Shown here piece by piece: positions 2,241 through 24,500 of a DNA stretch of 64,000 nt. This DNA is from a virus. The first letter of the stretch is position 1; the number at the start of each line of letters is the position of its first letter. Made by a program: the position numbers and the translations under genes. Below the pieces are notes generated by a model, which did no database searches, was not told the DNA's origin, and saw only the letters and a program-made list of their open reading frames with translations. The stretch is from positions 1 through 64,000 of the IMG/VR virus record IMGVR_UViG_3300027963_000041; one strand, given 5' to 3'.

Positions 2241-2463
2241 GGGTTGGATTCAGCAATCTTTAACATAAAACGCTAAAGAACTGTCTTCTACAGGAGGACC
2301 ACCGCAAGGTGTGTAATTACGGAGACTAGAGAGTAAACTCGAATTAAATCTGACGCTGGAAAGACAGACAAGATGATGGTAGCCCATCTGATTACGGTAG
2401 GGTTTTTTTATCCGAAAGGAAGTACCGTGGTTTAAGAACCGATAATACTTACCCGACCAACCC
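2241..2463 (+). ncRNA. Structured RNA module A of a repeated family
   Basis: GGGTTGG (2241-2247) pairs perfectly with CCAACCC (2457-2463), closing a domain of about 220 nt. Just inside the 5' strand is the motif A-TTCAGCAA (2249-2256), also present in modules B and C. Local hairpins inside include CTGT/ACAG (2281-2293), CACC-GCAA-GGTG (2300-2311), AGATG/CATCT (2371-2389), ACGGTA/TACCGT (2394-2428) enclosing TCC-GAAA-GGA, and GGTT/AACC (2429-2440). No plausible gene lies here. Candidates are a Y-RNA-like partner of the downstream Ro-like protein or a large ornate phage RNA. Identity is unproven. Confidence 0.7.
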
Positions 2464-2484: not shown

Positions 2485-2599
2485 AGAATAGGTTCAGCAA
2501 CAAATTCAAACAGGCTTCAAGCCTGTTATACTTGGTCCGTTTCGGCGGACGACATGAGTTTCGAGTTCTCATGTAAATCAAAAAGAAGAAAACTATTCT
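2485..2599 (+). ncRNA. Structured RNA module B
   Basis: AGAATAG (2485-2491) pairs with CTATTCT (2593-2599). Directly inside is G-TTCAGCAA (2493-2500). Three consecutive hairpins follow: AACAGGC/GCCTGTT (2509-2527), GTCCG/CGGAC (2535-2550) and ACATGAG/CTCATGT (2552-2574). An A-rich strand precedes the 3' stem. The stem sequence differs from modules A and C while the motif is the same, which favours a conserved RNA shape. Confidence 0.7.
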
Positions 2600-2619: not shown

Positions 2620-2679
2620 AGGTTAAGTTCAGCAAACTAAAAGCATTCAACTTGTAATTGAAAACGCAAAAATTAACCT
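2620..2679 (+). ncRNA. Structured RNA module C in the leader of the Ro-like gene
   Basis: AGGTTAA (2620-2626) pairs with TTAACCT (2673-2679). Inside lie G-TTCAGCAA (2628-2635) and one hairpin TTCAA/TTGAA (2646-2662, 7-nt loop). It ends about 22 bases before the start codon at 2702, so it could be an RNA partner processed from the leader, a binding site for autoregulation, or both. Confidence 0.65.
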
Positions 2680-2701: not shown

Positions 2702-4123
2702 ATGACAACATTTGTAGACGCAATAGTAAACCAAGAAGCCCGTACCGAGAATGGTATGAAGGCTCGTAAGTCAACCGCGAATGCAGTTGTAGACTTGTTC
2801 TATAACGCTGGCGCTTCTCGCGGTAAGAATATTGTGCCAGCATTTACTGCCGCAATGGCAGAGAACCGTGACCTTGCATTGCGTGTAGCCGCATGGCTTC
2901 GTGATGCCCGCGGTGGTGCTGGTGAACGCCAGTTGTTCCGCGACATTCTTGTGCATCTTGAGAAGACAGACCCTAATGCCGCAAAAGCATTACTCAAGAA
3001 AGTGCCTGAATTAGGTCGTTGGGATGACTTGTTTATCTTCAAGTCTAAAGAGTTGAAGAATGAAGCATACACTATGCTTGGTGATGCCTTGCGCCAGCGC
3101 AATGGACTTGCCGCAAAGTGGACACCTCGTCAAGGTCCTATCGCCGTAGAGATTCGTAATTTCTTCGGCATGTCTCCAAAGTTCTATCGTAAGTCTTTGG
3201 TCGAAATGACTAAAGTTGTAGAACAAAACATGTGTGCAAACACATGGGATGACATTAACTTTTCTCATGTACCTTCTGTTGCGTCTGCACGTTACAAGAA
3301 AGCATTCAACCGCAATACTGAAAAGTATGCAGAGTATGTTGCTTCCCTTGTGAAAGGCGACAATCCAGAAGTAAAGGTAAATGCATCCGTTGCATATCCA
3401 TACGATGTACTGAAAGGTCGCATCGGTGCATATGGAGTTACTTTTGACAAGACCGAATTGGACTTGATTCAAAAGCAATGGGAAGCATTGCCTAACTATG
3501 TTGGTGATGCAAGCATTCTACCTTTGGTAGATGTATCTGGCTCTATGACTACTTTAGCAGGAAAGAACACAAAACTTTCTTGCCTTGAAGTGGCAGTCTC
3601 TCTTGGTCTGTATCTTGCAGACAAGAACGCAGGTAAGTTCAAGGATACGTTCCTGACTTTCTCTGCAAAGCCAGAGTTGTTACACTTGAAGGGTAACATC
3701 AACCAGAAGATTGATCAAATGATTAAATCTAAATGGGATATGAACACTAACCTTCATGCCGCATTCAACAAGATTCTTGATGTTGCGGTGAAAGGCAATG
3801 TGCCACAAGAAGAAATGCCATCAATGGTATTGATTCTGTCTGACATGCAGTTTGACCAATGCGTAAAGCATGATAACTCTGCAATCGAAATGATTGAACG
3901 CAAGTATGAAGCCGCAGGATACAAAGTGCCACAAGTGGTGTTTTGGAATCTCAATGCATCATACGGTAACGCGCCAGTTAAGTTCGATAAGACTGGTACT
4001 GCGCTAGTGTCTGGATTCTCTCCAGCAATTGTGAAGCCACTCCTGTCGGGAGACATTGATAACTTCACGCCAGTATCGATCATGCTGAAAACCATCATGC
4101 AAGATCGTTACGCAGTTCTTTAA
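2702..4123 (+). CDS. Ro60/TROVE-like RNA-binding protein (DUF2828 type)
   Basis: A 473-residue protein. The N-terminal two thirds is helical, with LRDARGGAGERQLFR and a KKVPELGRWDDLF segment typical of the HEAT-like ring of TROVE/DUF2828 proteins. The C-terminal third is a von Willebrand A domain with the metal (MIDAS) motif DVSGS from Asp277 and a later LILSDMQFD strand. Ro proteins bind Y RNAs and damaged or misfolded RNAs; by homology this one should act in cytoplasmic RNA handling. AAAGGAG precedes the start. Promoter and modules A-C lie upstream, a further structured RNA downstream, and tRNA genes on both sides. This context supports an RNP function. Confidence 0.85.
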   Translation: MTTFVDAIVNQEARTENGMKARKSTANAVVDLFYNAGASRGKNIVPAFTAAMAENRDLALRVAAWLRDARGGAGERQLFRDILVHLEKTDPNAAKALLKKVPELGRWDDLFIFKSKELKNEAYTMLGDALRQRNGLAAKWTPRQGPIAVEIRNFFGMSPKFYRKSLVEMTKVVEQNMCANTWDDINFSHVPSVASARYKKAFNRNTEKYAEYVASLVKGDNPEVKVNASVAYPYDVLKGRIGAYGVTFDKTELDLIQKQWEALPNYVGDASILPLVDVSGSMTTLAGKNTKLSCLEVAVSLGLYLADKNAGKFKDTFLTFSAKPELLHLKGNINQKIDQMIKSKWDMNTNLHAAFNKILDVAVKGNVPQEEMPSMVLILSDMQFDQCVKHDNSAIEMIERKYEAAGYKVPQVVFWNLNASYGNAPVKFDKTGTALVSGFSPAIVKPLLSGDIDNFTPVSIMLKTIMQDRYAVL

Positions 4124-4153
4124 TTAGAACGATGAGGATTCGAAAGAGTCCTC

Positions 4154-4278
4154 ATTTAGAAACTTTTTGAGTGACTACAATGGAACACCTGAAATACTTG
4201 CAAATTCTAGATCAAGCAAGGACCAGCCATGAAGAGTAGGGTCATCACGGATTCAAGCGCCACAAAGAGTTTCTAAAT
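4154..4278 (+). ncRNA. Structured RNA with 16-bp closing stem downstream of the Ro-like gene
   Basis: ATTTAGAAACTTTTTG (4154-4169) pairs over all 16 positions (one G-U) with 4263-4278. Inside, CTTGC (4197-4201) pairs with GCAAG (4216-4220), and GTGACTAC (4171-4178) pairs in two halves with GTAG and TCAC (4236-4248). The pairing of both ends into one long stem resembles Y RNA architecture. It sits 30 bases after the Ro-like stop and ends 5 bases before tRNA-Gly. A 7-bp hairpin ATGAGGA/TCCTCAT (4132-4155) just upstream overlaps the stem by two bases. Confidence 0.65.
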
Positions 4279-4283
4279 GATAT

Positions 4284-4357
4284 GCGGGTATGATGTAATG
4301 GTAACCTGAAACCTTGCCAAGGTTTACTCGCGAGTTCGATTCTCGCTACCCGCTCCA
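4284..4357 (+). tRNA. tRNA-Gly (GCC)
   Basis: Acceptor GCGGGTA pairs with TACCCGC, the anticodon stem is AAACC/GGTTT with loop TTGCCAA, and CCA is encoded. Second Gly tRNA of the array. Confidence 0.95.
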
Positions 4358-23838: not shown

Positions 23839-24106
23839 AAAGCACAAAGAGATTATGAGTATTGCACAGGAAGAATGTGCAGAGGTGATTCAAGCCATCA
23901 GCAAAATTTTTAGATTCGGATTAGATGAATCATTCGAAGGTAGAACAAATCGCGAAAGATTGACAAGTGAACTCGGCGATCTTCAATGCATGATTACACT
24001 ACTTAAACAATATGAAGTGGTTGATGATTTTAAAGTGCATCAAGCCGAACTTGTAAAAAGAACTCGCCTTAGCAAGTGGTCAAACATTTTCACCGAGGTG
24101 CAATAG
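23813..24106 (+). CDS. MazG-like nucleotide pyrophosphohydrolase
   Basis: A 97-98-residue all-helical protein: EIMSIAQEECAEVIQAISKI (E-x-x-E metal-binding helix) and RLTSELGDLQCMITLL (ExxD helix). These are the two metal-binding helices of MazG/phosphoribosyl-ATP pyrophosphohydrolase-like enzymes. Likely hydrolyses an NTP or (p)ppGpp-like nucleotide. Start 23813 or 23816; it overlaps the exonuclease gene by 26 bases. Confidence 0.8.
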   Translation: MMNNYYLDEKHKEIMSIAQEECAEVIQAISKIFRFGLDESFEGRTNRERLTSELGDLQCMITLLKQYEVVDDFKVHQAELVKRTRLSKWSNIFTEVQ

Positions 24107-24124
24107 TAATTGTGCGCTAAATAT

Positions 24125-24192
24125 TAAGATGACTGTATGAAGTTAACCGAAAGGTGTTCTGGACGGGGGTGCGAATCCCCCCACCTCCACCA
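24125..24192 (+). ncRNA. ssrA: Permuted tmRNA, acceptor (3') piece
   Basis: GGAC, then a perfect T-stem GGGGG/CCCCC around loop TGCGAAT, then CACCTCC-ACCA (24182-24192). CACCTCC pairs with GGGGGTG at 24271-24277 (one G-U), building the acceptor stem with the downstream coding piece. GTTAACC (24142-24148) and TGTA (24134-24137) pair with GGTAAC (24292-24297) and TACG (24301-24304), forming helix P2. The acceptor part thus precedes the coding part, as in circularly permuted tmRNA genes. The 5' boundary is approximate. Confidence 0.85.
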
Positions 24193-24270
24193 AAAACGCA
24201 TCTGCCAGTCGCTCTGGTTGTATGGTACTATTCTAGAAATGAGGTTCAAGTCCTTTGGTGCGTTTTTGAT
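24193..24270 (+). other. tmRNA internal spacer, tRNA-like hairpin
   Basis: Between the CCA of the acceptor piece and the mature 5' G of the coding piece. AAAACGCATC (24193-24202) pairs with GGTGCGTTTT (24257-24266). Inside are a CCAG/CTGG arm and a T-arm-like GGTTCAAGTCC, but no acceptable anticodon arm. Expected to be removed during processing; the tRNA-like form could recruit RNase P or RNase Z. Confidence 0.65.
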
Positions 24271-24500
24271 GGGGGTGCATAGTTTCGACAGGGTAACAAG
24301 TACGAAGATGGACAGTCCGGTAGATGACGACCGTAAATCGCATAAAAAAAGTAAACGCAAACGATGAAAAGTTCGCATTGGCAGCCTAAACGCTGACTAG
24401 GGTTTCGGTGAGTTTCCTCGTAACAGAATAACTCACCACTAATTTTGGATAGTTGTAATCTGCGGCAACACCCGTTAGGCAGACCTAACTTTGGATTGCT
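24271..24500 (+). ncRNA. ssrA: Permuted tmRNA, coding piece with tag ANDEKFALAA
   Basis: Begins GGGGGTGCATAGTTTCGACA, the conserved tmRNA 5' end with the D-arm-like TTTCGACAG. The resume frame at 24357-24389 encodes ANDEKFALAA and TAA, matching proteobacterial tags such as E. coli ANDENYALAA. Downstream hairpins GGTGAGTT/AACTCACC (24407-24437) and GTTAGG/CCTAAC (24474-24489) are candidates for the later helices and pseudoknots. tmRNA rescues stalled ribosomes and tags the product for ClpXP. The 3' boundary is uncertain. Confidence 0.92.

Follow-up and report, generated by a model that had tools for sequence, protein, structure and literature searches.

A conserved structured RNA of phage tRNA arrays with a T-arm-like hairpin and a predicted kissing loop

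Introduction

What kind of RNA is encoded between a Ro-type gene and a tRNA gene in a virus genome, and is it the Y RNA of that Ro protein? The question arises in a stretch of 64,000 nt (hereafter the window) that forms the first part of the 143-kb IMG/VR virus record IMGVR_UViG_3300027963_000041 and contains a tRNA array, a permuted tmRNA at 24.1 kb and a Ro60-type gene (Table 1). A preliminary description had placed a Y-RNA-like RNA at 4154-4278, citing a 16-bp terminal stem and a position, 30 bases past the Ro stop and 5 bases ahead of the tRNA-Gly gene, that recalls bacterial rsr loci; the spacing is as described. YrlA RNAs (RF02553) are about 90-150 nt long, with their ends paired in a long stem and a tRNA-mimicking part that carries a T-loop (PMC8394870). 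Phage Y RNAs are already known (Chen et al. 2014, cited in PMC12282133, which also proposes Y RNAs close to the Ro gene of a Listeria phage).

On the evidence of a predicted structure, we consider the Ro assignment of the neighbouring gene sound. The model of its product (mean pLDDT 74) matches Ro60 of Thermus phage phiLo, Rsr of D. radiodurans and the Ro autoantigen; sequence searches of the PDB with the same product returned no relative. The hairpin directly after the Ro stop is kept there in many phages, including loci without the 4154-4278 RNA at that place, and by this comparison it goes with Ro and not with the RNA.

A conserved fold at 4154-4278

The 16-bp terminal stem with its one G-U pair is present in the minimum-free-energy structure of the window copy. 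The segment folds at -30.6 kcal/mol, compared with -20.5 +/- 3.2 kcal/mol for dinucleotide shuffles (z -3.1), and none of 200 shuffles folds as well; folding of 4124-4283 against shuffles gives z -4.7. The stem can be extended to 18 bp (4152-4280), where it overlaps the separate hairpin that follows Ro. The interior predicted from this single sequence differs from the conserved fold, which was derived from relatives.

Covariation among these relatives shows a conserved three-way fold made up of the terminal stem P1, a long arm of P2-P5 and a hairpin, P6, that abuts P1. In an alignment of 30 sequences, a standard pair is kept in 96.7% of pair cells, 16 of 24 pairs contain double changes, and double-change cells number 92 versus 28 in shuffles; when the partners are slid as a control, pairing falls to at most about 50%. 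P4 and P5 are misplaced in this alignment and were verified by parsing each sequence separately. P2 takes the forms GUGAC/GUCAC, GUAGC/GCUAC, GCAGC/GCUGC, ACAAC/GUUGU and AUGGC/GCCAU; P3 occurs as AUGG/CCAU, CUGG/CCAG, GCGG/CCGU and CUUG/CAAG; and P4 occurs as CUG/CAG, CCG/CGG, CAG/CUG, CAC/GUG and CUC/GAG.

These comparisons also bear on the pairings first proposed for the window copy. The preliminary description had suggested looking in related phages for uncompensated breaks in the terminal stem; P1 withstands this scrutiny because 8 of its 9 innermost pairs carry compensatory double changes. The proposed CTTGC/GCAAG pairing is real and covaries among relatives. The pairing of GTGACTAC with split partners survives in part, as its GTGAC/GTCAT half is a conserved helix, whereas its TAC/GTA half is not conserved: scans that do not impose TAC/GTA show GCA, GCG, GTT or GAA as the partner, or a shortened partner. 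UAC/GUA was dropped from P2 after these unbiased scans.

Table 1. Positions of the features discussed, in the window and in other loci
Feature	Locus	Position	Strand	Remarks
Candidate Y RNA module	Window	2241..2463	+	UUCAGCAA signature, variant stem GGGTTGG/CCAACCC
Candidate Y RNA module	Window	2485..2599	+	AGAATAG-GTTCAGCAAC...CTATTCT-GTT
Candidate short Y RNA module	Window	2620..2679	+	AGGTTAA-GTTCAGCAA...TTAACCT-GTT
Ro60/TROVE-type gene	Window	2702..4123	+	Pfam DUF2828 and DUF7788; predicted fold; neighbour of 4154-4278, not linked partner
Hairpin ATGAGGA..TCCTCAT	Window	4131..4156	+	From folding; directly after Ro stop
P1 5' strand	Window	4154..4169	+	Pairs with 4263-4278; inner 8-9 bp kept as helix in relatives
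P2 5' strand, GTGAC	Window	4171..4175	+	Pairs with 4241-4245 (GTCAT in window)
P3 5' strand, ATGG	Window	4180..4183	+	Pairs with CCAT, 4227-4230
P4 5' strand, CTG	Window	4189..4191	+	Pairs with CAG, 4224-4226
P5 hairpin CTTGC/GCAAG	Window	4197..4220	+	14-nt apical loop; stem covaries in relatives
Self-complementary hexamer TCTAGA	Window	4206..4211	+	Predicted kissing-dimer site; apical loop palindromes in relatives
Conserved GG	Window	4239..4240	+	Just before P2 3' strand; possible T-loop docking site
P6 T-arm-like hairpin, CGG-ATTCAAGCG-CCA	Window	4248..4262	+	Abuts P1; sister-group T-arm at same place
P1 3' strand	Window	4263..4278	+	Pairs with 4154-4169; minimum-free-energy structure
tRNA-Gly	Window	4284..4357	+	ARAGORN; directly 3' of 4154-4278
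Family RNA in intervening segment of permuted tmRNA	L139	4635-4772
Family RNA in intervening segment of permuted tmRNA	L156	2391-2527
Family RNA in intervening segment of permuted tmRNA	L161	688-827
Sister group with canonical T-arm	L129 (centre); L135, L147, L157, L160, L162, L172, L180, L182

The nature of P6 emerges from a sister group of at least 12 distinct sequences, which keeps P1-P5 and replaces P6 with a canonical four-pair T-arm, its UUCGANU loop enclosed by UUGG/CCAA, CGGG/CCCG, UUCG/CGAA or UCCG/CGGA. Because a canonical T-arm takes its place there, we read P6 as a T-arm. Together with inner P1, P6 would form about 12-13 stacked pairs, which is near the 12 of a tRNA acceptor stem plus T-arm. 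All 81 distinct sequences from a scan that left this feature free have the GG before the P2 3' strand, and we hypothesize that it docks into the P6 T-loop in the manner of the D-loop GG of tRNA. That 4154-4278 is a conserved structured RNA gene is firmly established.

Relatives in phage contigs

Pattern scans of IMG/VR successively yielded 35, at least 120 and 113 stretches, one parse gave 101 distinct cores, and in all more than 100 distinct relatives were found in IMG/VR phage contigs. The RNA occurs as a single copy per record. A covariance model built from 30 members recovers family members strongly. Its weak matches (22-25 bits, E about 1e-3) fall at L173 4655-4756 and a few other loci; the L173 match overlaps a true tRNA-Arg gene and fits the likeness to T-arm plus acceptor stem. 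A pattern match in L099 was discarded as a false positive.

No counterpart appeared in the collections searched. The strict core pattern had 0 matches in 84,980 bacterial and archaeal species genomes, blastn of two family members against isolated phages gave no relative, and 4154-4278 matched none of 4227 Rfam families at the gathering score or a low E-value. ARAGORN and RF00005 placed no tRNA cloverleaf on 4154-4278, and no phage RNA of this kind was found in the literature searched, in which journal coverage is incomplete. The RNA is real, widespread among large bacterial viruses and apparently described nowhere so far; it has no match among known families and would count as a new RNA family by Rfam standards.

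Relation to Ro and to Y RNAs

Several properties invite the reading that 4154-4278 serves the phage Ro protein as its Y RNA, with P1 binding Ro and the T-arm part acting as tRNA-like module. A terminal stem unites both ends as in Y RNAs, a T-arm is present, the RNA adjoins Ro in the window, and family members occur in several Ro phages. Nevertheless, the YrlA covariance model RF02553 has no match in 4100-4300 at E up to 10. Set against the YrlA alignment of L116, the segment lacks a D-arm and the permuted order of T-arm, acceptor and D-arm; it has only the T-arm-like hairpin, 3' of the long arm. It also lacks the stem/UUCAGCAA signature, which occurs in the window at 2241, 2485 and 2620 only.

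The distribution of the RNA is likewise independent of Ro. BLAST of the 4154-4278 region against 80 Ro loci found homologues elsewhere in tRNA arrays and not behind Ro. Among Ro records of at least 100 kb, 3 of 13 have the family RNA and 10 of 13 do not; conversely, the DUF7788 profile detects no Ro gene in ten RNA-bearing records of 101-285 kb. Some records are fragmentary, so that single absences are weak, but the mismatch between Ro and RNA is nonetheless two-sided. The likeness to rsr loci does not extend beyond the window, where alone the RNA directly follows Ro; elsewhere it lies 0.5-4.3 kb off on either side, and the family shows neither adjacency to nor co-distribution with Ro. We therefore rejected the identification as a Y RNA, given the YrlA non-match, the missing Ro linkage and the missing signature, and consider it very unlikely to be right. 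What stands of the earlier proposal is a structured non-coding RNA with paired ends and a tRNA-like element as in YrlA-type RNAs; what falls is its role as the Y RNA of the adjacent Ro.

The same placement just past the Ro stop could point to a transcription terminator or attenuator of the Ro gene. However, the family RNA is not behind Ro in other phages, Ro is followed by its own separate conserved hairpin, and co-directional tRNA genes begin within 6 nt downstream, which makes this reading the most improbable of those considered.

Better Y RNA candidates are found upstream of Ro, in modules that track Ro. These have the form AGRNNNN-N-TTCAGCAA...NNNNYCT-GTT, and an exact inverted repeat flanks TTCAGCAA in 134 of 151 instances on the Ro strand versus 4 of 32 on the opposite strand; 27 different stem sequences occur. 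The stem/UUCAGCAA...GUU signature recurs across Ro phages in modules of two sizes, long ones and short ones of about 54-61 nt. Several modules show the permuted order of YrlA, with a T-arm, an acceptor-like stem and a D-arm. The match of the L003/L116 module to YrlA covers the full model (E 5e-5, 31 bits, under the 69-bit gathering score), and other modules match the permuted order by eye. YrlA matches in tRNA arrays were treated cautiously, as two tandem tRNAs can mimic this order, and RF02553 yields weak matches even in control genomes. Module density is 1.6 per 10 kb in Ro loci, whereas RNA-bearing loci from records in which no Ro gene was detected have none over 107 kb. The three upstream modules of the window are thus its likely Y RNAs, judged by signature and distribution. 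Such modules offer many candidate Y RNA sequences with one common Ro-side signature for testing RNA choice by phage Ro.

Genomic location and release by tRNA processing

Within 300 nt of family members, 132 neighbouring tRNAs lie on the same strand and 0 on the opposite one, and 86 of 93 distinct members are close to a tRNA or within a tmRNA. Often the RNA occupies the precise interval that separates the CCA of a tRNA from the start of the following tRNA. An upstream tRNA lies within 60 nt of 45 members; in 39 of them P2 lies 14-17 nt past the tRNA 3' end, and P1 therefore begins at the CCA. The 3' flank often reads TATATGG, complementary to CCATATA, so that its TGG pairs with the CCA of the upstream tRNA. 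In L139, L156 and L161, the RNA is housed in the intervening segment of a permuted tmRNA, and P1 stacks on the tmRNA acceptor stem. A further locus, L132, is cut at the contig end and looks like the same arrangement.

Ordinary tRNA processing would free the RNA both between tRNAs and within permuted tmRNA, and we judge such release to be probable for the family. The 3' side of the window copy fits, with tRNA-Gly downstream, but its 5' end needs a different cut because the Ro gene, and not a tRNA, lies upstream. The identity of the adjoining tRNA varies among phages, which argues for a mobile, self-contained gene.

A cis-acting spacer would also draw on this location. In that case P1 would clamp the 3' end of a tRNA or tmRNA piece to the next 5' end and guide or delay processing, and the excised RNA would have no further role. 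The CCA-TGG pairing that P1 often includes and its stacking on the tmRNA acceptor stem agree with such a clamp, although arrays holding dozens of tRNAs have only one copy, the neighbouring tRNA differs between phages, and a clamp needs neither a conserved interior, a T-loop nor palindromes. A pure processing spacer is thus rather doubtful, and the single copy per record, the varying neighbours and the conserved interior lead us to favour a decoy or scaffold based on the tRNA-like elbow.

A second conserved element of about 200 nt lies just upstream of the family RNA, between it and a tRNA, in L134, L136, L154, L176, L095 and L211. It ends in CTCAGTCTAGGGCTC.TGTGGTG.GAGTAGCTAGACAC, has CCGCAAGG and GACTNGAGA pieces in common with window 2241-2463, and gave no Rfam match in the loci scanned.

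The palindromic apical loop

The apical hexamer is GUCGAC in most members and UCUAGA in the window; CUGCAG, ACCGGU, CCGCGG, UCCGGA, CUCGAG, ACUAGU, GCCGGC and GAUAUC/UCAUGA also occur. Palindromic loops number 40 of 43 distinct ones against 6.4 expected, and control windows are palindromic in 5 of 300 cases. With loop classes counted once and GUCGAC excluded, 9 of 12 are palindromic (p about 8e-6). Of the three non-palindromic loops, two retain self-pairing via G-U and the third (L158, GCCGGA) is imperfect. Loops were bounded by P5, as loops defined by RNAfold produced spurious mini-stems, and seven that the parser misplaced were assigned by hand, which leaves the class test unaffected because all seven contain GUCGAC. 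Some loops could make a small extra intramolecular stem.

A self-complementary hexamer is unable to pair with itself within one molecule, and a dimer contact is therefore the simplest reading. From this pattern of palindromes, a kissing-loop dimer of the family RNA appears reasonably likely. A DNA-level element, with the hexamer as site for a recombinase, homing nuclease or restriction enzyme, would account for a perfect DNA palindrome in an element that moves between array positions. The palindrome nevertheless varies among many sequences, the RNA stems covary with G-U allowed, and the tRNA strand bias is complete, so that we regard a DNA-level role as highly improbable.

Discussion

Our analysis leans modestly towards a T-arm-bearing small RNA that is freed by tRNA maturation, has a tRNA-like elbow, dimerizes by kissing and acts in trans. 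In this model, 3' processing of the upstream tRNA would make the RNA 5' end, and RNase P acting at the 5' end of the next tRNA (tRNA-Gly in the window) would make the 3' end. The freed RNA would then fold with an elbow formed by the T-loop and the conserved GG, and two copies would join through the kissing loop. As for its action, our guess is that the dimer works in trans and most probably contacts a host or phage protein able to recognize tRNA elbows, which might be an enzyme of tRNA processing or modification or a defence nuclease that cuts tRNAs. More tentatively, this may be a new family of phage RNAs that are homodimeric and T-arm-bearing, reside between tRNAs or within tmRNA genes, are freed by tRNA maturation at no extra cost and work in trans, for instance as tRNA-elbow decoys directed at host defences that cut tRNAs; we hold this fuller reading to be possible but not probable.

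tRNA-mimicking small RNAs are a known kind, including YrlA, tmRNA and perhaps T4 rnaC. The 4154-4278 RNA is similar to YrlA in its size, its ends paired in a long stem and its tRNA-mimicking T-loop part, and differs in lacking the D-arm and permuted order, a covariance match, Ro linkage and the common Ro-stem signature, as well as in its palindromic apical loop. The species 1 (rnaC) and species 2 (rnaD) RNAs of phage T4 are likewise small and encoded in a tRNA cluster, and their annotation calls them stable. rnaC has a T-arm-like hairpin near its 3' end, as our family does, but no palindromic loop is noted for either T4 RNA. Homology to rnaC was rejected, as the family model has no credible match in the T4 region (L117).

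Permuted two-piece tmRNAs (RF04321, RF01850) provide another setting, and their transcripts are cleaved by tRNA processing enzymes (PMC11915505). The family RNA is housed in three of these, whereas most members sit between tRNAs, and the inserts in the permuted tmRNAs of L097 and L109 are unrelated to it.

The HIV-1 dimerization site is a kissing-loop RNA dimer built on a self-complementary apical-loop hexamer, whose sequence can be changed provided that it stays palindromic. The 4154-4278 family likewise has a variable palindromic hexamer, here in a phage non-coding RNA gene and with a dimer that is predicted. The usual view is that phage tRNA arrays either provide codon supply or counter defences that cut tRNAs. 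The presence in them of a conserved gene that is not a tRNA, yet shows tRNA mimicry and has a likely dimer loop, suggests that they also deliver regulatory or decoy RNAs. The family may be relevant, too, to the long-standing puzzle posed by those stable RNAs of T4 that are not tRNAs.

The family model gives no match in the permuted tmRNA of the window (24100-24480, tag ANDEKFALAA), whose intervening segment has its own T-arm, GAGGTTCAAGTCCTT, beside a stem and a TTCTAGAA palindrome and resembles a small analogue of the 4154-4278 RNA.
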